From Candidatus Kryptonium thompsonii (lineage in GTDB: Bacteria > Bacteroidota > Ignavibacteria > Kryptoniales > Kryptoniaceae): a stretch of 64,000 nt of DNA. The stretch lies in contig LDXX01000009.1 in NCBI GenBank assembly GCA_001442925.1, forward strand, positions 1-64,000. The letters are read 5' to 3'. This document shows, piece by piece, positions 35,761 through 48,510 of the stretch (the stretch's first letter is position 1; every line of letters starts with the position of its first letter). The notes beneath the pieces were generated by a model that worked only from the letters and a program-made list of their open reading frames with translations, was not told the DNA's origin and ran no database searches. The position numbers and the translations under genes are program-made.

Positions 35761-37140
35761 TTATCTCGCTTTTCCGGAAATATTTACAGTTGCAGAACCA
35801 TTTGGGCCAGTTGTGGAGATACGAATAAGAATAGGCCTTTGCGTAGTATCAGCCGTTGTATCTTGAATTGCGAATGAAAACCTTGTCCAACTTCTGTCCC
35901 TTGTATCTGGCAGAGTTATATTAAGATCTCCCAACGCCCTTACATCTTTGCCATCAATTGAAACTGTAATTGTAGTTCCACCAGCAAGCGGATTTCCATT
36001 TTGATCGCTCACTGTATAATTAAAAACTTGAGAACCCAAATTAGGAATATCAAATGTTATCGGCTCAATTGAGATCTGTGGTATACCTGAGAAAAGAACG
36101 ATCGTCTCAGCTTTTATAGTATTTTGATTCTCATCAGCTGTTGTAGCTGTTATAACTGCGTAACCAGGCCCAAGGATTGGATGAACAGGCCTTGGTTCAG
36201 CTGAAATCAAATTAACACTTCCCTGTCCCCTATCATCTGTTAAAACCGAACCCTCAATTATTCCACCCGTGGTTGTAAAATAAACAGCCGTGCCGGGCTT
36301 TACGGGATTTCCATATTTATCTCCAACATATGCAGTTATTTTATTTGTAAGACCAAAAATGTTATATCCCGGAAAGTTTAATTTTTCAGGTGCGATACTA
36401 AAATGCGCTGAGTCAGGCAGTCCTCCATGAATTACTATCACGACAGGAAGAGATCTTATAACTTTCGTTCCAATGAAAGACTCAGCAACAATTTGAACGA
36501 CACCAGCTTTCGTCCCACTTACAATGTTAACAGTTACTCTACCCTTACTATCCGTCCTCGCCTTTGGCGGATATACAAATTCCCCACCGCCTGGACCCGA
36601 GCCTATTTTGAAATTAACCTCGACGGAATGCGCTAAATCAACCGGTTTACCACTTGAATCTTGAACTTCAAAAACCATTTGTGCTGTTTCAACGGAACCA
36701 CTACCTTTGACACCTATATTTTTAGAGCTTTGTGATACAAGAACTATGCTCGCCGGCTCACCGCTTGTTGGTACCTCAGATACAACTCGCTGTAACATGA
36801 AAGCTGGAACTTCAACAACTCGTCCTGGAACAACCAAAACATTGATAGTATCCGGATCGTAGCCCTCTTTAAATGCCACCAATTGAACTTCTATTTCACT
36901 CTCAATTTCAAATTGAAACTCATATTTACCCAATGAATCAGTATAAGCTATTAATGTCGGCGTTATCCCAAGAACTCGTACAACTGCATTTTGTAAAGGG
37001 GCATTTGTTGCCGACTCAAGCACTTGCCCTTTTAATGTAACGGTCTTCAATTGCTTTTCCGCCTCTGGTTCCACTGCTTTTTTGCAGCCAACCATAATTA
37101 ATGAAAGTAAAGCAATAAAAATAAAAACTTTTTTCAACAT
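35761..37140 (-). CDS. Lipoprotein with carboxypeptidase-regulatory and Ig-like domains
   Basis: A 459-residue protein with a lipoprotein signal (LIMVGCKK, Cys at about 19). A carboxypeptidase-regulatory-like domain (about 34-115, LKGQVLESATNAPLQNAVV) is followed by two bacterial Ig-like (invasin/Big_1-type) domains (about 130-240 and 245-350, with DSSGKPVDLAHSVEVNF and DKYGNPVKPGTAVYFTT) and a last beta-rich domain. It follows the secretin gene by 13 nt. A role in assembling or anchoring the secretin, or as an adhesin, is inferred only from its place in the pilus operon. Confidence 0.7.
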   Translation of the reverse strand: MLKKVFIFIALLSLIMVGCKKAVEPEAEKQLKTVTLKGQVLESATNAPLQNAVVRVLGITPTLIAYTDSLGKYEFQFEIESEIEVQLVAFKEGYDPDTINVLVVPGRVVEVPAFMLQRVVSEVPTSGEPASIVLVSQSSKNIGVKGSGSVETAQMVFEVQDSSGKPVDLAHSVEVNFKIGSGPGGGEFVYPPKARTDSKGRVTVNIVSGTKAGVVQIVAESFIGTKVIRSLPVVIVIHGGLPDSAHFSIAPEKLNFPGYNIFGLTNKITAYVGDKYGNPVKPGTAVYFTTTGGIIEGSVLTDDRGQGSVNLISAEPRPVHPILGPGYAVITATTADENQNTIKAETIVLFSGIPQISIEPITFDIPNLGSQVFNYTVSDQNGNPLAGGTTITVSIDGKDVRALGDLNITLPDTRDRSWTRFSFAIQDTTADTTQRPILIRISTTGPNGSATVNISGKAR

Positions 37141-37153
37141 TTAAATTCAAAAT

Positions 37154-38371
37154 TTATTTTTTTAGCTGTTTCTTATAATTCTCAAGAGCTTTCAAAAATT
37201 TCTCTCTACCTTCTTTTAAAGTTGGTACTTCTCCAACCTTTAAGCTCATTTCCTTTAACCTTTCAGCAAGGCTTGGTAAAATCTCGGCTTTCAAAAGTAT
37301 TATCAATTCCTTTTTTGCCACAGTTTTAACATCAAACCCAAACAGATACCTTAAACCAAAAAACCACCATGGCAAATCTTTCAAAAGCGGAACCCCTTCA
37401 CGAGTCGTTCTTTCTTCATTTATGTAAAGACCTCCGATTATGGTTTCTTCTCCATCAAGAAGTAAAATCTTAGTTTGGGCTGACGATTTATTTATTGTTA
37501 TCTGCGGAGCTACACCCGCCACATTGCTTCTTTCAATGTTAAGTTCAAGCGAAATAAAGTAAATTGTATCAAACTTTATAACTTCAGGTTTAACTCTAAT
37601 TATTGAACCAGTTGATATGAACTGCGTGATTGCATTTCCAGCGAAATCCCTTACAGTAGTTGAAACGTCGCTCCCAACCTGAATTTGGCCCTGCTCTCCA
37701 GATCTGACTACAATTCTGGGGTTAGCAACGACCTCACCTATTTGTTGTGATTCAAGCGTTTTAAAAACAGCCACTAGACTTCCAAAGTCAAGATCCGGAG
37801 TGACATCAATCGTAAATAAACCCGTTTTACCCTCACCTGCTGACATAGTCACACCAACATTTACTCCCTTCCCACGGAAGAAATCCCAGCTAAAACCGTA
37901 TTGCTTTAACTTAGCTGCGTCAGCCTCAAAAAATACAGCCGAAATCATAACCTCACGGGTCTCAAACTGAACCTTTGCTTTTTCTTCTTCCGTTGGAGCA
38001 GTTGGGGTTGGTATCCCCGTTACCTCAGTAAGGGGGACAATCTTTATATAATCAGCGTATTCCTCATACCAAAGCTTATTTACCCTTAAAATTAACTCAA
38101 GAGCATCAAGCCAATGCATCCTATCAATGTCAACCCCAATCGGTATTGTCCTTGCCTCTGGGTCAATTATAACCTTACCAAGAAACTTTTTACTTATGTC
38201 ATTAAAAATTTGAAGAGCTTGATTAAATGGCATCGTCCTTGACATTGAAACTATCTCCTCGGGAGCAACATAAGCTCTTCTCAACTCTCGGGGGCGACCT
38301 CCGATTTGTGAAAGAGCCAAACCTGTTAAAAGTTCAAAAAGAAGTAAAAAAACAAAAATCTTTAGTTTCAT
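37154..38371 (-). CDS. Short PilQ/GspD-type secretin
   Basis: A 405-residue outer-membrane secretin with a signal peptide (about 1-22). It has one N-terminal secretin/TonB short-N-like domain (about 50-115, PIGVDIDRMHWLDALELIL) and the conserved C-terminal secretin domain (about 150-380) with VVANPRIVVRSGEQGQIQVG, GSIIRVKPEVI and LLDGEETIIGGLYINEE. Secretins form the pore through which the pilus leaves. It is much shorter than typical PilQ, with no AMIN domains, so it may rely on other proteins for peptidoglycan contact. A GAGGTGAT site precedes the ATG. Order after the PilO-PilP fusion matches the classical pilMNOPQ order. Confidence 0.85.
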   Translation of the reverse strand: MKLKIFVFLLLFELLTGLALSQIGGRPRELRRAYVAPEEIVSMSRTMPFNQALQIFNDISKKFLGKVIIDPEARTIPIGVDIDRMHWLDALELILRVNKLWYEEYADYIKIVPLTEVTGIPTPTAPTEEEKAKVQFETREVMISAVFFEADAAKLKQYGFSWDFFRGKGVNVGVTMSAGEGKTGLFTIDVTPDLDFGSLVAVFKTLESQQIGEVVANPRIVVRSGEQGQIQVGSDVSTTVRDFAGNAITQFISTGSIIRVKPEVIKFDTIYFISLELNIERSNVAGVAPQITINKSSAQTKILLLDGEETIIGGLYINEERTTREGVPLLKDLPWWFFGLRYLFGFDVKTVAKKELIILLKAEILPSLAERLKEMSLKVGEVPTLKEGREKFLKALENYKKQLKK

Positions 38372-38383
38372 ATCACCTCTCTA

Positions 38384-39265
38384 TTATTTTTGTTGCTCAA
38401 ACCTGAGTTTCAACACAAACTTTTCCACTATGCCTGCTTTGTTAAGCGTAAATTCAACTTGATTTTTATCAATATCAATTTTCGTCACATAACCAAGGTA
38501 AACTTCATCCCCCTCTCTTAAAACATGAATCTTTCCGGTGTGATCAGCAATAAATGCCCTCCCGGGTATCACTGCTTTCAAATCAGCTCTTTCAACTTCA
38601 AGTAAACCCCTTGTATTAGGTGGCAGTTCTCTGTAAATATACGGTGCAAAGGGATTTTTGACTTCCTCAACAACTACATCCCCAAGAGTTCTTTTTATTG
38701 GGGGCAAATCTTTAACCTCAGCATAAAGGGCGTGAACTTCCATCTGAAACGGAACCACAATTTTAAATCTTTTCGTCTCCTCATCCCTTGTTTCAACGCC
38801 ACGAAGATCAAGCCGTGCAATCCTGTAAATCTGTGGACCTCGCTCAAGATACCAAATGAATTTATAAATATTTTCAAATGAGGCTTCACCCTTTATATTG
38901 TAAATATTGTACGCATACTTCTGCGCCTTTTTACTGCCCATATATAGCATATCAAATTTAACAAAGCCAGCATAATTTAAAATTGAATTCAGATATGAAT
39001 AAGTCATCGCGGGTGTGACATCCGGAACTATCTGTTTATCAAGCTGTGCTAATTTTTCCTGCTCTTCTTTAATCTGCTTTTGCAAATTGTAAAGTTCAAC
39101 CTGCAATCCAGCAAGAGTATTTATCTGTTGTTCAGTGTTTCGAATTTCAGCCTTAGCTTCATTTATCTTTTTCGGATAAGAATAAACAATAAAATACGCT
39201 CCAACCGCAATAATTATAACAAGAAATGCAAGGAGTATGAGTGTATTTCTAGTTTTATATGGCAA
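38384..39265 (-). CDS. PilO-PilP fusion, pilus alignment complex
   Basis: A 293-residue inner-membrane protein. An N-terminal transmembrane helix (about 8-28), a coiled coil (about 33-80) and a ferredoxin-like periplasmic domain (about 85-185) match PilO. After a linker, residues about 203-290 look like PilP: NPFAPYI, then LKAVIPGRAFIADHTGKIHV and GDEVYLGYVTKIDI. PilP is normally a separate lipoprotein that contacts the secretin. The start is TTG with a GAGGTGAAAA ribosome binding site. It lies between the PilM-PilN fusion and the secretin, exactly where pilO and pilP would be. The PilP assignment rests on pattern and position. Confidence 0.75.
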   Translation of the reverse strand: MPYKTRNTLILLAFLVIIIAVGAYFIVYSYPKKINEAKAEIRNTEQQINTLAGLQVELYNLQKQIKEEQEKLAQLDKQIVPDVTPAMTYSYLNSILNYAGFVKFDMLYMGSKKAQKYAYNIYNIKGEASFENIYKFIWYLERGPQIYRIARLDLRGVETRDEETKRFKIVVPFQMEVHALYAEVKDLPPIKRTLGDVVVEEVKNPFAPYIYRELPPNTRGLLEVERADLKAVIPGRAFIADHTGKIHVLREGDEVYLGYVTKIDIDKNQVEFTLNKAGIVEKFVLKLRFEQQK

Positions 39266-39281
39266 TTTTCACCTCAAACTT

Positions 39282-40886
39282 TTATTTTTTAATCTCCTTG
39301 CTTTGTTCAGGCACTACAGATGCTTTTATTTCAAATTGATAAACTGTTCTTCCCCTTATTTCCTGCACCTGAACTTGCATTAATGTTGCATTTCCAAGGG
39401 CGTTTGAAAATCTTGGAATCCTGTTCCTATAAAGCGAATAACCCCTAATTGTGACCGTCTTCGGATCAGATGCCCCTATATCAGTGATCCAAATCCTTCC
39501 AACCCTTTGAGCTTCCATTGCAATCTTGTTCAAGAACTTACTCCATATATCGGTATTAACTCGCATTGAATCGAGAACCCCAAAGGTTGCTTTATAATAA
39601 GCTAACTTTTGCCTTGCGAAATCCACTTGCTGCTGCAATGTCTGAAGCTCTGCAAGTTCAGATTTTTTCCTTTGAAGCTCGGTTCGAGTTTCCAAAAGCG
39701 TTCGATTAAGTTGTGCTATTTTTGTTGTCACTTGAAAAGTAAGAATAGGAATTAAAAGTAAAAATAACCACCCAAGAATTCCAAGTTTAAAAACCTTCTG
39801 TCCTTCCCTGATTTCAAACGGGGTTAAATCAATCGCATAAAGTTCTTTATTTTTTATCTCAAGTGCTCTCCAAGCTGAACCAATCGCAACCGCGACTCTG
39901 GGTAAATTTTCCAAAAGTAAAGGATCTGAACCATTCGGAGATAAATTGGGCAATTTTATATACTCAATTTTAACATCCTCTGGAAACATTTGCTCTAGAA
40001 CTTCTTTAACGCCAGCAGATTGCGCCTCGCCAGCAAGAATTATATTGTTTATCAACGGTAACCCAAGATTATCTTGCTCAAGTATTAACCTGCTATAAAT
40101 TGTGTTTGCAATATTGTATGAATCAATTCCTTCACCAATAAGAGGCGATATGTGATAAAGTTCGTCACCCTTCATAAAAATTAATCTGCTAAATTCATGC
40201 CCAATGTAAACTATAACAGTAATTGAATTTGGTGGGAATTTATAGTTTAACTTGACAAGGTTCGCAAGGGATATCTCGGGACTTTCAATAAACGAGATTT
40301 TAGGAATTCTTCCTCCAATTGATTTCTTAATGTTATCAAGCAGATCAAGCAAAACAATTCTTAAATCTCGAACAATCGCAAGGACAGAGCCATCGGGAAA
40401 TTCAATGTAATTTACCGCATCTGGTTTAAAGGGTTCACCAGATCTCCCCTTTGATATCTCCTCAATTATCTTCGCTTTAAGTTTATCCTTCTTCAAGCCC
40501 CAATTTGATTCAAAAGCTGCATAATAGACATAGGGTTCAGGGACTGAAATGCCGAGCTTATATTTTCGTTTTGGATATTTACTCAAAACCCCAATAAGAA
40601 TTGATGCGTTGTCCCCTTGACCCGTTTCAGTTAAAAGTAAATCTGGGGTTGATGCTTCCGATGTTATATCTATCGGCGTTAACTCAGAGATAGATCTCGG
40701 CTCAATTTGTTCAACTATTCGCGCTCCGGCTGACGCTGTTTCCAACTTTGAGGCAAGATTAACTATCTGGGCATCAACAAATCTCACCTTTTTCCCCGAT
40801 TTCGCAAGACAAGCAACTTGCAAAGATAAACCGTCAACAAAAATCCCAACAGCAAGTTTTCCTGAAAACTTTTTGTCTCTCGCCAT
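39282..40886 (-). CDS. PilM-PilN fusion, pilus inner-membrane platform
   Basis: A 534-residue protein. Residues 1-345 have an actin-like PilM layout, starting with VGIFVDGLSLQVACL and ending with ENLPRVAVAIGSAWRAL. Residues 351-363 (AIDLTPFEIREGQ) match the short cytoplasmic peptide of PilN that binds PilM. Then come a transmembrane helix (about 366-385), a coiled coil (about 386-430) and a PilN-like periplasmic domain to the end. PilM and PilN normally meet through this peptide; here they are covalently joined. It is followed by the PilO-PilP fusion. Confidence 0.82.
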   Translation of the reverse strand: MARDKKFSGKLAVGIFVDGLSLQVACLAKSGKKVRFVDAQIVNLASKLETASAGARIVEQIEPRSISELTPIDITSEASTPDLLLTETGQGDNASILIGVLSKYPKRKYKLGISVPEPYVYYAAFESNWGLKKDKLKAKIIEEISKGRSGEPFKPDAVNYIEFPDGSVLAIVRDLRIVLLDLLDNIKKSIGGRIPKISFIESPEISLANLVKLNYKFPPNSITVIVYIGHEFSRLIFMKGDELYHISPLIGEGIDSYNIANTIYSRLILEQDNLGLPLINNIILAGEAQSAGVKEVLEQMFPEDVKIEYIKLPNLSPNGSDPLLLENLPRVAVAIGSAWRALEIKNKELYAIDLTPFEIREGQKVFKLGILGWLFLLLIPILTFQVTTKIAQLNRTLLETRTELQRKKSELAELQTLQQQVDFARQKLAYYKATFGVLDSMRVNTDIWSKFLNKIAMEAQRVGRIWITDIGASDPKTVTIRGYSLYRNRIPRFSNALGNATLMQVQVQEIRGRTVYQFEIKASVVPEQSKEIKK

Positions 40887-40906: not shown

Positions 40907-42151
40907 TTAAGCTGCCTGCAAAAGTTGCTGCATTCTTCGTTTATTATTTGCAAAATTCATGGCCGTTTCAAGTGAAATTTTCCGCTCAAGATAAAGCCGT
41001 CTTAAATCCTGCTCCATCGTAATCATACCGTATTCAGCTCCTTCTGCTATCATTTGGTAAATCTCACCAGTGTTGTTATTCTTTATCGCAGCCCTTATTG
41101 ATGGCGTCATGACCATAACCTCTTTAGCAAGAACTCTCTTCCCGTCCAGGCTCGGAACAAGTTTCTGTGAAATTACACACCTTAAAATATCAGCCAACCT
41201 GTTTCTTACCCTCTCCTGTTCGATCGGTGGGACCTCCCCAATTATTCTATCAATGCTTTCAACAGCCGAAGATGTGTGAAGCGTCGATAGAACTTTATGT
41301 CCACTGTCAGCAACCTCAAGCGCAGCCATTATCGTATCTGGATCCCTCATCTCACCAATTATAATTATGTCCGGGTCCTGACGCAATGCTTCTATTGTTC
41401 CCTGCTTAAAAGACATCGTATCCCTTCCAACTTCCCTATGCCGAATTATACAACGCTTTGACTCGTGAACATACTCAATGGGGGATGCAATTATAATTAT
41501 ATGCGCATCAACCGTTCTATTGTTAAGATCAACTATCGCATCGAGCGTTGTGCTTTTTCCTGACCCTGTTATCCCTGTGACGAGAATTAAACCCTCCTTG
41601 GTATATTGCAAACTTAACATTCTTGTCACATTTGGATGGAAACCATAACTTTCATACGGTCTTATCTGGGTATTGATCGCTCTCATATTCAAAGCAAGAT
41701 CATCTAAATCAAAATAAGCATCTGCACGATAGCGATATATGACACCATTTTCATCTTTAAGCGTATACGAAAAATCAAGGTTCCTATTTTCATAAAGATA
41801 TTCTCTTTGTCTTTCCATCAACAAACTTTGAATTAAAATGTTAAATTCATCCAATTCATAAACCCCAAACTCCGGGATTGGCTTCTTCACACCATGAATT
41901 CTAAGCCAAACCATTTTTTTCGAACCCCATCCTCCAAGATCTATATCCGAGGCTTCAACCTCTCTCATTCTAATGAGAAACATATTGATCAAATTTCTCA
42001 AAAGAAGCTTTTGTTCCTCGGGCATTTTCTTTATTATTTCATTGCCAATATACATTTGCTTCTCGATACTAAAAAGCGTAACCGGAATTTTCTTTGCAAG
42101 CGAACTCAACAATTCTTTTGCTTCCTTCACTAACTGCGGATTTACAGGCAT
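40907..42151 (-). CDS. PilT/PilU-like pilus retraction ATPase
   Basis: A 414-residue secretion ATPase with an N-terminal domain of about 170 residues, Walker A GITGSGKSTTLDAI, Asp box and Walker B (DPDIIIIGEMRDPDT) and His box (LSTLHTSSAVESIDR). Close similarity to PilT over the motor core suggests a retraction motor, so the pilus could drive twitching or DNA uptake. The C-terminal AIRNLIRE motif of PilT corresponds to a diverged SIRAAIKNNN here. The N-terminal extension is longer than in PilT (about 350 residues in all). Confidence 0.88.
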   Translation of the reverse strand: MPVNPQLVKEAKELLSSLAKKIPVTLFSIEKQMYIGNEIIKKMPEEQKLLLRNLINMFLIRMREVEASDIDLGGWGSKKMVWLRIHGVKKPIPEFGVYELDEFNILIQSLLMERQREYLYENRNLDFSYTLKDENGVIYRYRADAYFDLDDLALNMRAINTQIRPYESYGFHPNVTRMLSLQYTKEGLILVTGITGSGKSTTLDAIVDLNNRTVDAHIIIIASPIEYVHESKRCIIRHREVGRDTMSFKQGTIEALRQDPDIIIIGEMRDPDTIMAALEVADSGHKVLSTLHTSSAVESIDRIIGEVPPIEQERVRNRLADILRCVISQKLVPSLDGKRVLAKEVMVMTPSIRAAIKNNNTGEIYQMIAEGAEYGMITMEQDLRRLYLERKISLETAMNFANNKRRMQQLLQAA

Positions 42152-42177: not shown

Positions 42178-43533
42178 CTATTCCCACCATGAAACCAACC
42201 TTAACTGTCTTATGCCGGGAAAGCTCACAAGAGGATAATATGGCGGTGCTTTATCTCTGAAGCGGGGATCATATCTGTATCTCTTATTAAATCCATTTTG
42301 AATTATTCCACTACCACCTGAAAACTGTCCCACCGGTCCTCTTCCTTCCTGAACTATACCTCCAGTTAAATAAATTGTCCCTGATGGTGGTCTTTTATCC
42401 CAGTTTTCAGCAATGAAACTTTTATCATTTGAACCCCCATCATAAGCCATAATAGCAGCTTGAATAACTACATCATTTTGATTCGGGTCGCTATCAGCTA
42501 TGATAACATTTTTATAAGAGACAAGCCCAAGAAAATCATCAGAGTTTGGATTTACATTTGGATCATCAGCATATTTTAAATCATCCCAAATTCTTATGTT
42601 TCCATCAGCAAGGATGGTAAGTTGACCGTTCAATGTACCTTCAACAACAACTTCATTTTTAACCCAAATAACACCAGTTGAACTTAAGCTTGAAATATTA
42701 GCTACTGTATCAGGCGGTGACAACTGAGGAACTCGGCGTTGCCTTAAGTATTGTCCACTCCCTATTGTCTCAACCGTCCACCCAACTATATCTCTTTTCA
42801 CAACTTTACCATTGGACAGGAATTTAAGATAAACTGGGTTATTAAAAACTCCTCCACCGTTTACTGCAGCTGTCTTAGTTCTCGTCATATCAACCGGTAT
42901 TTCAGCCTGTATTCCAACTTCCCATCCACCATAAAACTTTGCTTTGTTTCTATTTGAAGTTGGCTGCGGGTTGATCCCAGCATAAGCAGTAACTTTATCA
43001 TAAAACACGGGCGAGCCATATGTGTGCAAAACTCCATTTGTATGAACAGGACCCCAAACGGTATCACCGGTTATCCAGTAAACTGGCGCACCATTGTAAA
43101 ATTCGGTTCCAGTAAGCCAAAAATATCTTGAAGCAGGTGTATTAGGACCGCTCGAATATATAAAGTAAGCAAAAGCAGAATCTTCTATTTTATAAGGTTT
43201 TTTATATCTGGCATAATAAGTATCAACAAAAGCATAACCCCATGCTTTAACGCTTAACCTTACAAGCGAATCTGGAACAACTGGATATATGCGAACAGTT
43301 GCAGTGCAATTATTCATTACGACATTGAAAGTTGCATTAGTTAATGTATCTTTCCAAACTTTACTTGCACCAATATTCATTGCACTTACAGCCGTTTCAT
43401 GAACAAGCGTCTTTGAATAGTAATAGTTAAAACTGTCCGTTGCCGAAATCACAGCCCGAGTTAAGCGAAGCTGATAAACTGAAAATATCGAAATAAAGCC
43501 TATTAATATCAACAAAGATGTTTTACCAAACAT
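42178..43533 (-). CDS. Pilus-associated protein with N-terminal pilin-like helix
   Basis: A 451-residue protein starting with a hydrophobic helix (MFGKTSLLILIGFISIFSVY) like PilX/PilY-type accessory or minor pilins, followed by a large beta-rich part. That part includes ITGDTVWGPVHTNGVLHTYG and VEGTLNGQLTILADGNI, which resembles the DUF4900 family. There is no KGFTLIE-like cleavage site. Two genes upstream encode smaller pilin-like proteins, so this may be a tip or minor component of the pilus. Function not established. Confidence 0.6.
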   Translation of the reverse strand: MFGKTSLLILIGFISIFSVYQLRLTRAVISATDSFNYYYSKTLVHETAVSAMNIGASKVWKDTLTNATFNVVMNNCTATVRIYPVVPDSLVRLSVKAWGYAFVDTYYARYKKPYKIEDSAFAYFIYSSGPNTPASRYFWLTGTEFYNGAPVYWITGDTVWGPVHTNGVLHTYGSPVFYDKVTAYAGINPQPTSNRNKAKFYGGWEVGIQAEIPVDMTRTKTAAVNGGGVFNNPVYLKFLSNGKVVKRDIVGWTVETIGSGQYLRQRRVPQLSPPDTVANISSLSSTGVIWVKNEVVVEGTLNGQLTILADGNIRIWDDLKYADDPNVNPNSDDFLGLVSYKNVIIADSDPNQNDVVIQAAIMAYDGGSNDKSFIAENWDKRPPSGTIYLTGGIVQEGRGPVGQFSGGSGIIQNGFNKRYRYDPRFRDKAPPYYPLVSFPGIRQLRLVSWWE

Positions 43534-43540
43534 AATCTTT

Positions 43541-44233
43541 TTATCTTCTTAGATTTTTAGATACTAATCTCGTCTGTCTCCAGAAAGAAGTCCTCAACAA
43601 CCGCCTTAATTCTCTTTTTCTAAACTCCTGATCTTGAATACTTGAAACTTCCTTTTTGACAAGTTCAGGTGATAAAACAACCCTTGGGTTAAACATAGTA
43701 AGAGTTACCTCAACCATTTTTGTAGCAATTAATTCCATTCCCGGATCAACTGGATTTCCTATTTGATCAAGGTACCTAAAAACTCGTGCATTCCCTATTC
43801 TACCTACATCTGTCATGCGAACACCTTCACCCGTGATTTTCAAAATCCTCGTAACTTTATACATCCGCAAAATTGTGTCCCCGTAATCAATAGTTTCTGC
43901 AAGCGATATTACATATTCAATTGTATCTGGTACATTATCTTTATGGGGTATTACATGATCAAAATAGTCAAACTCACGATTTAAGTGCGCTATAAACTTA
44001 ATATGACCTGGTTCAGCTTTAAAAAGAATTTGAGAGCCCTCCGGAATACCATAACCCATTTTTCTCAGGTCATATTCAATTACTCCAGATGTATTTGCAA
44101 GATTTATTTGAGTGATGGCATCTGAATTATAATTAAGAAATTCACGCGTTCCAGTATCAGTGACAGTTATAGTAATAAGTAGAATAGCTCCTCCTATAAT
44201 TGTAGCCATTATGTAGTCAAGCAGTGAACTCAT
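43541..44233 (-). CDS. PilW-like minor pilin candidate
   Basis: About 230 residues with an N-terminal hydrophobic helix (MSSLLDYIMATIIGGAILLI) followed by an amphipathic stretch and a globular domain, similar in length and outline to PilW/GspJ-type minor pilins. ATG at 44233 preferred over the TTG one codon upstream. The GF-x4-E prepilin site is not present, although an Asp sits near the start of the hydrophobic helix. Identified by context rather than by motif. Confidence 0.5.
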   Translation of the reverse strand: MSSLLDYIMATIIGGAILLITITVTDTGTREFLNYNSDAITQINLANTSGVIEYDLRKMGYGIPEGSQILFKAEPGHIKFIAHLNREFDYFDHVIPHKDNVPDTIEYVISLAETIDYGDTILRMYKVTRILKITGEGVRMTDVGRIGNARVFRYLDQIGNPVDPGMELIATKMVEVTLTMFNPRVVLSPELVKKEVSSIQDQEFRKRELRRLLRTSFWRQTRLVSKNLRR

Positions 44234-44248
44234 CAAAATTAGCTAAAT

Positions 44249-44800
44249 TTAATTATAAAACCAGTAACTATAAACGAAACTTATTTTAATCGTATCTCTA
44301 ACTTTGCCAGATGCTGTCTCCTTGTAAATTAAAGGTGGGTCATATATATCCGATATAAATACCGTCATCCTTTTATGAAATGTCTTATACGAAACTGGAA
44401 TAACCCTGTTACCCGAGAGATCAACATACTCAACCTTAAAACTAACTTTATATATAACGCTGCTTCTCCCTGTGTCAATTTTGGATATACTATTATAATC
44501 ATCAAAATCATCTATCTCCATGGCGCCAACCATTGTTGTATCATCTGGGTCAAGCCCAAGCGTTGAAGAGAAAGTATTTGGATCAGTTTTAGCGGTGTTG
44601 TTCGTATCAGCAACCGCTTCATCAAAATAATATTGTGATGCTTGTTCAATATAAGATGTAGCAATGGAGAGCGCTTCAAGTCTATATCTATTTTGAGCAA
44701 GTGAAACATCGTGACTTGAGAGACCACGATTTACATTTAAGACAGCAAGCGAGAGAAGCGCCAACGCTAAAATAGTTATGAGTGTTTGTCCAGTCGTCAT
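44249..44800 (-). CDS. Small pilin-like protein
   Basis: A 183-residue protein starting MTTGQTLITILALALLSLAV, a hydrophobic helix followed by a helical spine (about 25-60) and a beta-rich domain, like minor pilins of the PilV/GspI type. Gly4 could be the residue before a cleavage site, giving QTLITILA, but Glu5 is missing. Note that Gly-Gln before the helix also occurs in the major pilin. It lies between the PilB-like and PilW-like genes. Confidence 0.5.
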   Translation of the reverse strand: MTTGQTLITILALALLSLAVLNVNRGLSSHDVSLAQNRYRLEALSIATSYIEQASQYYFDEAVADTNNTAKTDPNTFSSTLGLDPDDTTMVGAMEIDDFDDYNSISKIDTGRSSVIYKVSFKVEYVDLSGNRVIPVSYKTFHKRMTVFISDIYDPPLIYKETASGKVRDTIKISFVYSYWFYN

Positions 44801-44818: not shown

Positions 44819-46606
44819 TTAATCTTCGGTTGTGGCATGTGCAACCTCTTCAAGCGTTGTAAGCCCTTGTTTTATCCTCTCTCTCCCAGCTGCTCTCAAA
44901 GTTAGCATTCCATCCTTTATAGCCTGCTCCCTTATTGCTTCCTCGTCAATATCTTTCCCAGTTTTGAAAATTAATCTGCGAATTTCTCTCGTGAAATAAA
45001 GCGCTTCATGTATGGCGATCCTTCCCTTATATCCACCATGGCATTGATCACATCCGACCGCTTCGTAGAAAACAGTATTTTTAATTTCTTCCTCCGTAAA
45101 TCCCAAACTCAAAGGAATCGCCGGGTCAAGATCCTCTATTGGACGCTTACATTTATCACACAACTTACGGATCAATCTTTGTGCGATTATAATGTTTATC
45201 GCATATGCGATAAGAAATGTCTCAATTCCCATTTTATATAATCTCGATATGGCACTTGGGGCATCATTTGTATGCAGGGTTGAAAATGTTAAGTGGCCTG
45301 TATTTGCAAGTTTAATTGCTATCTCCGCTGTTTCCTTATCTCTTATCTCACCAACCATAACAACATCCGGATCATGACGCAAAATCGCCCTCAATGCTTG
45401 TTCAAAATTCATCTTCGGACCAATCTTCAACTGCCTCGCTCCTGGAATTATATACTCAACTGGATCTTCAACTGTCAAGACGTTTATCTCCGGCTTTATA
45501 ATATAATGTAAAGCAGCCATCAATGTTGTTGATTTACCGCTTCCCGTAGGACCCGTAACAATAACCATCCCTTGTGGTTTTGAAATCGCTTTAATGAAGA
45601 ATTCTTTTGCCTTACCTTGGAAACCAAGTTTATCGAGATCAGTTATAACCTTTCTATCATCAAGGACACGAATGACAATGCTCTCAAACTTATATTGAAA
45701 TTCCCTCCCAACTATTGGAAGGATCGAAACCCTATATCTTATCATATGCCCATCAACTTTTCTCTGGATAAATCCATCTTGTGCCATCTCCCGCTCGAAT
45801 CTATCAACATTCTTTGACCTATCTTTTACAACTGCTGCAATTGCTTCAGGTCTTATACCCTCCTGAACATGCCAAAGTCTGAGCTTTCCATCTATTCTAA
45901 AGTGAATTTCAGTTGTCCTTGAATCCCTAGGAATTATGTGAATATCGCTCGCCCCTTTTCTCACCGCTTCAACCAACATTCCCTCGACAAGATTAACCAA
46001 CATACTCTTGTTTATCTCCGCTTCAAGTGCAGCTTCATCAAGTGTTTCCTCTTCAAGTTCCTCCTCAGTTATTTCAAGTTTTGATTCCTCAAGAACTTTT
46101 AAAAACTCATTTTCAGGAGGAAAAACTTTATCAAAAAGATTTTGCATATCCTTCAACCTCACATAGCACACCTCATATCTCTTCGCACCAAGCGCCCTTG
46201 CAATTAAAGGGATAGCTCTACTCGTGGGATCAGCTGAAATTAAAATAAGTTTATCAGGCCTTTGCTCATCATATTTCAAAGGTAAAATCTTCTCCGATCG
46301 CATCTGTTCTTTAAGTGCTTGAGGAAGCGGCTCAACAAGTTTCTTTATAAAATCAATTCTATTCTTGTCAATGTTCTCATCCGCAAGATAAATCTCCCTG
46401 AACCCATAAAGATTCGCAACTTCTTTAAATACACTGTCGTGATCAATCCCAAAATCAGACACAAGTATCTGCGCCAAGCTTCGCCTTGTCTTTGAATCCT
46501 CTTGTTCTTTAATCTTTAAAGCTCTGTCAAGTGTTTCATAATCTACCACACCCTTTTTCAAAAGCGTATATCCCAATTTATCCGTAATATCCACTCCAAC
46601 AGTCAT
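44819..46606 (-). CDS. pilB: PilB/GspE-type pilus assembly ATPase
   Basis: A 595-residue ATPase with an N-terminal MshEN/T2SSE_N domain (about 1-165), a linker with an acidic stretch (about 180-200), and the motor: Walker A GPTGSGKSTTLMAAL, Asp box, Walker B DPDVVMVGEIRDKETAEIA and His box FSTLHTNDAPSAISR. A tetracysteine zinc site (CDKCK and CDQCHGG) is typical of PilB. It powers pilus extension. GAGGTGAT precedes the ATG. It follows PilC and is followed by the minor pilin-like genes. Confidence 0.95.
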   Translation of the reverse strand: MTVGVDITDKLGYTLLKKGVVDYETLDRALKIKEQEDSKTRRSLAQILVSDFGIDHDSVFKEVANLYGFREIYLADENIDKNRIDFIKKLVEPLPQALKEQMRSEKILPLKYDEQRPDKLILISADPTSRAIPLIARALGAKRYEVCYVRLKDMQNLFDKVFPPENEFLKVLEESKLEITEEELEEETLDEAALEAEINKSMLVNLVEGMLVEAVRKGASDIHIIPRDSRTTEIHFRIDGKLRLWHVQEGIRPEAIAAVVKDRSKNVDRFEREMAQDGFIQRKVDGHMIRYRVSILPIVGREFQYKFESIVIRVLDDRKVITDLDKLGFQGKAKEFFIKAISKPQGMVIVTGPTGSGKSTTLMAALHYIIKPEINVLTVEDPVEYIIPGARQLKIGPKMNFEQALRAILRHDPDVVMVGEIRDKETAEIAIKLANTGHLTFSTLHTNDAPSAISRLYKMGIETFLIAYAINIIIAQRLIRKLCDKCKRPIEDLDPAIPLSLGFTEEEIKNTVFYEAVGCDQCHGGYKGRIAIHEALYFTREIRRLIFKTGKDIDEEAIREQAIKDGMLTLRAAGRERIKQGLTTLEEVAHATTED

Positions 46607-46625: not shown

Positions 46626-47990
46626 TTAAAAAATTTGAAATGGAAGTATAATCGTATATGGCGTCTTAGGTTTAACCATTGCCGTCTCAGACGATACAAG
46701 TGTAAGAAGTGTCATCACAATCATTATTATCATCGCAATCATAAGCTGAATAAAGTCAACGGCATTCTTAAGTTTATAAACTGTTTCCTTTTCGTAATAA
46801 TTTGCGATTTGAAGTGCTGTTTGCTTAACTGTTCCAGTTTCAGCACCAGAGTGAAACCTTGCAAGTGCTGTCTTTGTGAAAACCCCCGTCGCTTCAAATG
46901 CTTCCGTAAGCCCCTTACCTTGACTTAACATCATCGGAATGGCTATAGTTTTTATCTGATGCTCCATATACTTATTCCCGCACGCCTCTGCTGCCAAGCG
47001 AATTGCATCAATGTTCTCCCCCGAACCTGTGTATAAAGCGTAAAAAACCCTGCAAAAAATTTCAATAGTTGTCTTGTGAATCAGTGGTCCAAGAACAGGA
47101 AGTTTTATAATATATTTGTCGCGCAAAAATTGACCTTTTGGAGTTCTAATAAAGTAAATAAAAGCAACCGAAATTAAAACCAAGCCAAGGAGGATGAAAG
47201 TTATATTCTCAGTTAAGAAATAACTCAACTTCAAAGTTGCTGCTGTCATCGGCGGAAGCTCAGTTCCAAGCTTGAGAAAAAGTTCAGCGGTCTCAGGGAA
47301 AATATAAGCAACATAAAACACAACAGCGATAAACAAAACAATTAATGTAAAAACAGGCATTATCAAAGCACTTTTGAGATTTTTCTTAAATTCAGCATTC
47401 CTTTCAAGAAATTTAGCCGTGCTCTCGTAAATATCAGCCATATTTCCACTCTTTGACGCAAGCCCAAGCATTCGAGCTGTAAATTTACCAAGCACTCTCT
47501 CCTGCTTTATAAACGCCTCTTCACTATCCTTACCCTGGCGTAAATCATTATTTATCTCTCGCAATGCTTCTCTTAAAGTTGGGTGTTGAACATCATTTAT
47601 CAAAAGCTGGAGAATCTCATTATAAGGAAGCTTTTCCCTTAACAAATCAGCGCTGACCCGAACAAACGTTACAATTTCCGTATCTGGTGGTTTAAACTTA
47701 AAATCCAAAACTTTGGGTTGTATGCTTACAACCTTATAACCAAGTTTTTCAAGCGCCTGTCTTACCTCTTCTTTCGTAAATGCTTTCTGTTCACCTGTTA
47801 TAGGCTTTTCACTATCACGCTGAACTTTGTAAATAAAAGTCCTACGCTTTTGAATCTTCGTTATCTTAATCTTCCTCTGATCAGCTAAGGCTTTAATCTT
47901 TTTCTTCGCCTCGGAAAGATTATCAGCGGTGATAATACCTTGGACAGGACGCCCCGTTAATGTTAACCCTTCAAAACGATAATCGGGCAA
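46626..47990 (-). CDS. pilC: PilC/GspF-type inner-membrane platform protein
   Basis: About 454 residues from a TTG at 47990 (reading PDYRFEGLTLTGRP). This start has GGGAGGTGG about 7 nt upstream. The frame is open to an ATG at 48050, but that stretch is the terminator-like hairpin and its T tract. The N-terminal region holds two copies of the GspF cap pattern (YRFEGLTLTGRPVQGIITAD and FIYKVQRDSEKPITGEQKAF). Two T2SSF domains follow (about 100-230 and 300-430) with paired transmembrane helices; motifs include GKFTARMLGLASKSGNM and ALARFHSGAETGTV. It anchors the assembly and retraction motors in the inner membrane. Confidence 0.93.
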   Translation of the reverse strand: MPDYRFEGLTLTGRPVQGIITADNLSEAKKKIKALADQRKIKITKIQKRRTFIYKVQRDSEKPITGEQKAFTKEEVRQALEKLGYKVVSIQPKVLDFKFKPPDTEIVTFVRVSADLLREKLPYNEILQLLINDVQHPTLREALREINNDLRQGKDSEEAFIKQERVLGKFTARMLGLASKSGNMADIYESTAKFLERNAEFKKNLKSALIMPVFTLIVLFIAVVFYVAYIFPETAELFLKLGTELPPMTAATLKLSYFLTENITFILLGLVLISVAFIYFIRTPKGQFLRDKYIIKLPVLGPLIHKTTIEIFCRVFYALYTGSGENIDAIRLAAEACGNKYMEHQIKTIAIPMMLSQGKGLTEAFEATGVFTKTALARFHSGAETGTVKQTALQIANYYEKETVYKLKNAVDFIQLMIAMIIMIVMTLLTLVSSETAMVKPKTPYTIILPFQIF

Positions 47991-47996
47991 CCTGAA

Positions 47997-48005
47997 CCAC
48001 CTCCC
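47997..48005 (-). promoter_or_regulatory. Strong ribosome binding site fixing the pilC TTG start
   Basis: GGGAGGTGG on the minus strand lies about 7 nt before the TTG at 47990. No comparable site precedes the ATG at 48050, which instead lies at the edge of a hairpin stem. Confidence 0.75.
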
Positions 48006-48050
48006 AAAAAATAAATTAAAAATCAATGGGGATGCATCAAGCATCCCCAT
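48006..48050 (-). terminator. Terminator/attenuator between pilin and pilC
   Basis: A perfect 10-bp stem (ATGGGGATGC at 48026-48035 with GCATCCCCAT at 48041-48050, 5-nt loop) is followed on the minus strand by a T-rich tract ending in TTTTTT. It begins 10 nt after the pilin stop. Partial termination here would make pilin mRNA more abundant than mRNA for the machinery genes, as is common in pilus operons. Confidence 0.78.
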
Positions 48051-48060
48051 ATTATCTTAA

Positions 48061-48510
48061 TTATTGCTGTGTCCAGCCCTGCAATTTCCCATAGCCTTTA
48101 GTGGCATCCGTTGTCTGCAAACTCGTTGCAGTACCTTGATAAATCCTGCTTTTATCAGCATCTACACAGTCAATTGCAGCAACATACGCTGTTCCAACTT
48201 TTTCTTTACCAAGGGCATGAATAACAATTGCCTGCTCACCTGTTAAAATTTCAACCCTGTAGCTCCCATTCGCATTACCAGTATCAAGCGGGCTTAGAGC
48301 GAAGTTAGCGAAGCTATTTCCACCACCACCCAATTCAACAGGTGTTCTGTAATATCTTTGTGCCTTTGAAGCAAGATTTGCAAGGTCACTTGCAACTGCG
48401 CTCCTATTGGCGTCAACTGCGCTGCTCTTGAACATTGAAATACCAACAGCAATCGCAATTCCAACTATGATGACGCCAAGGACGATGAGTAAAAGTTGCT
48501 GCTGACCCAT
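48061..48510 (-). CDS. Major type IV pilin-like protein without a canonical prepilin leader
   Basis: A 149-residue protein starting MGQQQLLLIVLGVIIVGIAI, continuing with a helical spine (about 25-55: RSAVASDLANLASKAQRYYR) and a Gly-rich, beta-rich head with one cysteine (AIDCVDADK). Size and layout match a type IVa/IVb pilin, and it is first in the pilus operon with its own promoter. Unlike normal prepilins there is no basic leader, no GF-type cleavage site and no Glu5. The start is fixed by AGGAGGT 8 nt upstream. Processing after Gly2, leaving a Gln at +1, or no processing at all, are both conceivable. Confidence 0.75.
   Translation of the reverse strand: MGQQQLLLIVLGVIIVGIAIAVGISMFKSSAVDANRSAVASDLANLASKAQRYYRTPVELGGGGNSFANFALSPLDTGNANGSYRVEILTGEQAIVIHALGKEKVGTAYVAAIDCVDADKSRIYQGTATSLQTTDATKGYGKLQGWTQQ

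Follow-up and report, generated by a model that had tools for sequence, protein, structure and literature searches.

Two fused genes in place of PilM, PilN, PilO and PilP in a type IVa pilus-like operon of Candidatus Kryptonium thompsonii

In the type IVa pilus (T4aP) machine, the alignment complex is composed of the four proteins PilM, PilN, PilO and PilP. The window analysed here, that is, the whole stretch of 64,000 nucleotides at positions 1 to 64,000 of contig LDXX01000009.1 from Candidatus Kryptonium thompsonii, belongs to contig C9 of the draft genome of this hot-spring bacterium (2.59 Mb, 98.5% complete). It contains a pilus-like operon in which the interval between PilT and the secretin holds two tandem minus-strand open reading frames (ORFs) and no other ORF of at least 100 amino acids (aa). 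This raises the question of how the functions of four proteins are accommodated. An initial annotation, made from the sequence, had recognized that there are only two genes and had interpreted them as a PilM-PilN and a PilO-PilP fusion. Our analysis bears out both assignments, and we estimate a probability of about 0.87 that the two genes encode, in two chains, the complete alignment complex at the inner membrane of a T4aP-like machine that also includes PilB, PilC, PilT, a secretin and several pilins.

Domain content and distribution of the fused genes

The two genes and their parts are located as follows (positions in the window).

39282-40886, minus strand: PilM-PilN fusion, 534 aa, ATG start (ORF, fold and profile matches, conservation in the phylum)
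39852-40886, minus strand: predicted actin-like PilM part, about residues 1-345 (structure alignment to 5eou_B and 2ych)
39795-39839, minus strand: PilN peptide inside the fused chain, residues 350-364, YAIDLTPFEIREGQK (conserved [ND]-L-x-P core)
39318-39557, minus strand: predicted periplasmic ferredoxin-like PilN domain, about residues 444-523 (model, profile match to PilN of 3jc8)
38384-39265, minus strand: PilO-PilP fusion, 293 aa, TTG start (ORF, model, fold matches, conservation)
38723-39265, minus strand: PilO part, residues 1-181, with a membrane helix, a long helix and a ferredoxin-like domain (fold and profile matches)
38408-38644, minus strand: predicted PilP / GspC-HR beta domain, residues 208-286 (fold matches to 2lc4, 3oss_C and 2ivw)

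Single-protein scans of both fusions with Pfam and NCBIfam gave only matches below the cut-offs: 18.4 bits for the PilN half with PF05137 (cut-off 22.8, E=0.0023) and 12.8 bits for the PilO half with the Pfam PilO model (cut-off 22). Because these matches were weak, alignments of relatives were built. Structure models were calculated from alignments of the window protein with proteins of named loci (68 sequences for PilM-PilN and 71 for PilO-PilP) and reached a mean predicted local distance difference test score (pLDDT) of 84.2 and 87.3, respectively.

For the PilM half, model residues 10-357 match the PilM:PilN1-12 entry 5eou_B (Z 25.6, root mean square deviation (rmsd) 3.1, 290 aligned residues) and residues 9-344 match the Thermus PilM-PilN entry 2ych (Z 25.2), so that the predicted model has the actin-like fold of PilM. 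The match to 5eou_B extends to chain residue 366 and, as read from the residue numbers, appears to include the PilN peptide. The remainder of the chain has all elements of PilN, namely an INLLP-type peptide, a membrane helix and a periplasmic ferredoxin-like domain. The profile of PilM-PilN relatives (columns 335-478) matches PilN of Myxococcus xanthus (3jc8) at E=1.7e-6, and the PilN part is modelled with alpha-beta-beta-alpha-beta-beta secondary structure. The PilM-binding peptide, which the initial annotation took to be retained, is conserved: position 353 is Asn or Asp in 68/68 rows, position 354 is Leu in 64/68 and position 356 is Pro in 67/68. An NCBIfam model of the Amuc_1101 family also matches residues 395-471 in register, at a score far below its cut-off (E=5.8e-4). 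In the PilM part, position 227 is Tyr in 66/68 rows and positions 286-287 are Gly-Glu/Asp in all 68, where actin-like ATPases carry Asp and Gly-Gly. Compared to canonical T4aP, the nucleotide motifs appear degenerate, and the ability to bind ATP may have been lost, as in GspL.

In the second protein, the PilO half is recognized by profile and by fold. The profile of PilO-PilP relatives (columns 23-163) matches M. xanthus PilO (3jc8) at E=3.4e-5, and model residues 80-183, which include the ferredoxin-like domain, match 2rjz (Z 11.1) and 5uvr (Z 9.9). The PilP half is found by fold: residues 208-292 match the PilP entries 2lc4 (Z 9.1) and 2ivw (Z 7.7), and residues 225-288 match GspC-HR in 3oss_C (Z 8.6, rmsd 1.0 over 57 residues). 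Unrelated folds can come close to Z values of 8-9; nevertheless, we assign a PilP beta domain to the predicted model because the same stretch is picked out by three independent entries for PilP or GspC-HR and lies in a fitting position behind PilO. PilO-PilP has an N-terminal membrane helix, and none of the 71 proteins has a lipobox among its first 45 residues. The complex therefore differs from that of canonical T4aP in having two chains instead of four and a PilP that is not a lipoprotein, the latter as previously proposed.

Furthermore, the fusions are widespread. Among 80 named loci of Ignavibacteria, Kryptonia and Calditrichota that were fetched with the PilM-PilN profile, 71 contain both full-length fused genes next to each other; the other nine have partial or broken frames, several of them at contig ends. 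The titles of these records include Ignavibacteria, Calditrichaeota, Caldithrix and Bacteroidetes, and the gene order pilin-PilC-PilB-(minor pilins)-PilT-PilMN-PilOP-secretin is fixed among them. PilO-PilP matches were found in 40/61 relatives and PilM-PilN matches in 41/61. In 395 sampled genomes of the phylum, PilO-PilP occurs in 134 and PilM-PilN in 130 (about a third), and all 130 genomes with PilM-PilN also have PilO-PilP; the four weak genomes with PilO-PilP only (G091, G098, G309 and G327; E about 5e-4 to 9e-4) are probably due to chance. Both halves lie in one frame in 128/130 genomes for PilM-PilN and in 128/134 for PilO-PilP, as read from the match tables. The order is also kept in 20 regions from distant families, where PilO-PilP is one ORF in 20/20 and PilM-PilN in 19/20. 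The fused genes are not a product of chance, given that genomes across the phylum retain the two ORFs. The wide distribution and the kept order argue for old and shared fusions, so that the local reduction implied by the initial annotation does not hold; the fusions are instead the standard of a large clade.

A few irregular cases were followed up. The '1 TAG' flags in PilO-PilP matches are not a frame artefact, since they mark the normal PilO-PilP stop with the secretin downstream in the same frame. The apparent split of the PilM-PilN gene in genome G049 is best read as an insertion into its membrane-helix region and not as a native split, since a short repeated target (CACGGAATATTGATGGG) is present at both contig ends. 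This repeat, at the end of L058 and the start of L026, is about 17 bases long. Genome G223 contains a second pilus cluster (L226) with PilM and PilN in separate, divergent ORFs about 0.8 kb apart, and this second copy is probably decaying.

By analogy to canonical systems, the two chains could form a continuous line of contacts from the cytoplasm to the outer membrane. Like GspL in type II secretion, the PilM-PilN polypeptide carries both the predicted actin-like domain in the cytoplasm and the peptide that PilM binds, together with a membrane helix and the ferredoxin-like domain in the periplasm. PilO-PilP contributes its own membrane helix and a coiled coil as well as another ferredoxin-like domain and the beta domain that would contact the secretin. 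The ferredoxin-like domains of the two chains would pair as PilN and PilO do, the PilP domain would bind the short secretin at its only N0-like domain, and PilT would drive retraction. A covalently fixed 1:1 stoichiometry and tether, as suggested in the initial annotation, is plausible.

The surrounding operon and its pilins

The other genes of the operon are listed below.

35761-37140, minus strand: lipoprotein with Big_1-type (Ig) domains, the usual next gene (Big_1 1.7e-14, neighbour survey)
37154-38371, minus strand: short secretin, 405 aa, with a signal peptide, one N0-like domain and the secretin domain (PF00263 5.3e-29)
40907-42151, minus strand: PilT retraction ATPase (TIGR01420, 339.6 bits, above the cut-off of 319.1)
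42178-43533, minus strand: minor-pilin-like ORFa, starting MFGKTSLLILIGF (position, N-terminal hydrophobic helix, leaderless homologues)
43541-44236, minus strand: minor-pilin-like ORFb (position, N-terminal hydrophobic helix, leaderless homologues)
44249-44800, minus strand: minor-pilin-like ORFc, starting MTTGQTLITIL (position, N-terminal hydrophobic helix, leaderless homologues)
44819-46606, minus strand: PilB extension ATPase (TIGR02538 3.2e-138, below the cut-off of that family)
46626-48050, minus strand: PilC platform protein (PF00482 8.9e-31)
48061-48510, minus strand: major-pilin-like protein, 149 aa, starting MGQQQLLLIVLGVIIVG (start context, alignment of homologues)

On the minus strand, the operon thus reads pilin, PilC, PilB, three minor-pilin-like ORFs, PilT, PilM-PilN, PilO-PilP, secretin and Ig-domain lipoprotein, and a response-regulator gene lies beyond it. 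The homologues of the lipoprotein downstream of the secretin vary in length from about 460 to more than 1,900 aa; this protein is possibly a secretin partner or an adhesin. The secretin is the only one in the source genome, and its homologues are 392-451 aa long (n=70). Across 30 aligned homologues, the STN model is found in five and no N1 model is listed, with STN and Secretin as the only secretin-type models among those listed. The secretins of the operon apparently have a single N0-like domain and no N1. They appear not to have the N0-N3 domains that characterize GspD of type II secretion systems (T2SS).

The pilins of the operon appear to be made without a leader. All 41 major-pilin homologues that passed the length filter begin with M-G, and in the alignment of 38 rows M1, G2, Q4 and Q5 of the motif M-G-x-Q-Q are invariant while columns 1-10 contain no Glu and hence no Glu5. 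In the window, the ATG of the pilin is the first start codon after the upstream stop and is directly preceded by AGGAGG. The pilin ATGs inspected have an in-frame stop within the 45 bases upstream and often an AGGAGG-like site before them, which leaves no room for a leader. The minor-pilin-like ORFs start close to the hydrophobic helix as well (median 3 to 6 residues). If the pilins are born mature, at most the initiator Met would be removed; Gly follows it in all major pilins of the named loci. The identity of the major pilin itself comes mainly from its position and helix pattern, as it is weakly recognized by sequence: its two best matches in the PDB are Geobacter PilA (E 0.24-0.35), which align to within a few residues of where the mature protein begins, and unrelated transporters score close behind.

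Pilin processing, secretion and pilus function

Type IV pilins have leaders of 6-26 aa, T4aP pilins being defined by a class III leader of this length with a terminal Gly and by Glu5, and a prepilin peptidase is listed for all pilin-bearing phyla except Nanoarchaeota (PMC4471445). MSH loci lacking a peptidase have been described by Denise et al., who suggest that these may borrow one (PMC6668835). Ordinary T4aP processing, with a divergent peptidase that was missed and a wrongly placed pilin start, would compete with the leaderless pilins and leave the fusions untouched. The absence of the peptidase is based on one Pfam model, which may miss divergent members, and the genome is a draft. One gene on contig C7 starts MAQAKAKGSIILEILIVVL, resembling a class III leader. 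However, Peptidase_A24 has no match at E<=10 in the source genome whereas the same search matches in 12/14 control genomes, and 115/130 operon-bearing genomes of the phylum have no match above the cut-off (15/130 do). Twelve of the genomes with the operon but without such a match consist of a single contig; three of these twelve (G084, G223 and G334) have weak matches at E 0.04-0.09. Among the 61 relatives, the peptidase occurs in 6/41 operon-bearing genomes, and in the phylum sample there is no association between operon and peptidase (odds ratio 0.89, p 0.75). The stops and ribosome-binding-like sites directly upstream of the pilin starts also disagree with a wrong start, and the C7 gene was rejected as a sign of processing: it is conserved in the genus, but its homologues outside the genus lack the motif. 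We thus regard ordinary processing as an unlikely, though not negligible, explanation.

Where a peptidase is present, it mostly adjoins a second, T2SS-like cluster. In 20 peptidase neighbourhoods (L265-L284), drawn from 18 of 19 genomes that have the operon and a match above the cut-off, a second PilB-type ATPase of at least 297 bits was found in 17; the regions lacking it are L265, which ends at a contig end, L275 and L280. Fourteen of the 20 regions have a secretin-type ORF of 635-812 aa, and most carry canonical GFSLTELL-type pseudopilins according to a crude regular expression. In G113, for instance, the operon pilins start MGQQQLLLVIL and MANKEIII, and a leader-bearing GFSLTELLIVLAIIGI pseudopilin adjoins the peptidase. 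These clusters bear on the view that the operon itself is a T2SS-like secretion system and not a retractile pilus, with PilM-PilN as GspL and PilO-PilP as GspM plus GspC. GspL is itself the equivalent of PilM plus PilN (PMC10191384), the PilP part fits GspC-HR closely, and the so-called T2SS of Bacteroidetes branches with T4aP (PMC6668835). On the other hand, PilT is adjacent and exceeds its family cut-off, as it does in 19/20 of the distant regions, and PilT has been lost in T2SS (PMC10191384). In the 18 genomes examined with both, the T2SS-like one is the separate cluster with its own ATPase, its mostly longer secretin and its canonical pseudopilins; separate PilO-like ORFs (182-190 aa, weak at 15-26 bits) were found in three of the 20 peptidase neighbourhoods. 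A secretion system is therefore improbable as an explanation of the operon. The possibility that the two genes are relics or result from faulty assembly can practically be dismissed: the split G223 paralogues and the G049 insertion would fit this, but the frames are open and conserved in dozens of independent assemblies, with PilO-PilP identities in the aligned rows of 86-92% within the genus and 30-44% outside.

Several observations weigh against a complete two-chain alignment complex of T4aP type. The profile searches of the two proteins confirmed PilN and PilO only: the PilM half had no PDB match at the sequence level, and the PilP half matched PilP neither in the PDB profile search, where the best chain over it was DotF (E=0.17), nor in the Pfam scan. 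The identities of these two halves derive from predicted models (pLDDT 84 and 87), which are monomers with interfaces deduced from other systems; the structural match lists (VIA) leave some parts of a model uncovered. The PilM, PilO and PilP folds were nevertheless all matched in these models. The source genome has a further PilM domain, in a lone PilM-like gene of 293 aa on another contig (PF11104 9.9e-8); this protein gave no useful alignment with the PilM-PilN profile. As to separate alignment genes elsewhere, neither Pfam PilO nor Pfam PilP matches anywhere in the source genome at E<=10, yet the missing PilP match is weak evidence since that model matches only 1/14 control genomes. The PilM-PilN profile finds one place in the genome and no second locus, and PilN was covered by this profile and not by a family model of its own. 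Finally, neither the class III leader with Glu5 nor the prepilin peptidase of the T4aP machine was found. On contig C7 (L150:3248-5115), a ComEA-like gene, a bitopic pilin-like protein and the lone PilM-like protein lie in a row, and the middle gene is also present in relatives of the class.

The initial annotation is thus partly supported, and it overlooked the leaderless pilins and the absence of the peptidase. From sequence and models, we read the operon as encoding a machine of T4aP type whose alignment complex has two chains and whose pilins are probably leaderless and independent of a peptidase. Furthermore, the evidence favours, with a fair margin for doubt, a branch of Bacteroidota/Calditrichota pilus machines in which pilins are born mature, having no class III leader, Glu5 or peptidase, the alignment complex has two chains and the secretin a single N0-like domain, while in genomes that also have a T2SS-like system the peptidase and leader-bearing pseudopilins lie with the latter.

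Comparison to known systems and implications

A close parallel is found in the T4aP of Pseudomonas aeruginosa, M. xanthus, Thermus thermophilus and Neisseria meningitidis, which share all four domains, the PilN core peptide, the order and the PilT and secretin neighbours with the operon. T2SS are similar in the GspL/PulL equivalent of PilM plus PilN (PMC10191384) and in the fold of GspC-HR; GspM and GspC, however, are separate chains there, and the PilN peptide motif is kept here. The pilus proteins Amuc_1098-1102 of Akkermansia include the PilM-like Amuc_1101 and the PilO-like Amuc_1100, whose fold matches the PilO part with Z 9.7; Akkermansia belongs to another phylum. The secretin-contact domain of T2SS is anchored by a membrane helix, as in PilO-PilP. 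Within the same phylum, the so-called T2SS of Cytophaga hutchinsonii (CHU_3191-3202), where CHU_3194, CHU_3193 and CHU_3191 have HHpred matches to PilN/M/O/P (PMC5553014), is a separate cluster with a prepilin peptidase and canonical pseudopilins, unlike the fused-gene operon. Clusters resembling it co-occur with the operon in the 18 genomes examined.

Individually, PilM-PilN and PilO-PilP fusions are already known. A PilO-PilP fusion with the same domain pair was reported in 2011 for Pseudomonas putida (UniProt Q88CU9), together with the argument of a 1:1 stoichiometry; it was presented as one of few cases, and the excerpt of that paper states neither a PilM-PilN partner fusion nor a mark of a clade (PMC3169554). 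We found no description of both fusions together, or as the standard of a clade, in the open-access literature, subscription papers being mostly outside the search.

The four-protein scaffold is the model for the communication between the cytoplasmic ring and the outer-membrane pore in type IV pili. In the natural two-chain version the stoichiometry would be fixed by covalent linkage, which makes it a simpler target for reconstitution and cryo-electron microscopy, and PilM-PilN appears to be the natural counterpart of the engineered-looking PilM:PilN1-12 crystal entry. The apparently leaderless pilins and the absent peptidase are the larger and stranger result compared to the fusions. Should the pilins indeed have no leader, the prepilin peptidase, listed in reviews as a core part of the superfamily, would be dispensable, and it would become directly testable what leader cleavage and Glu5 contribute to membrane extraction and assembly.

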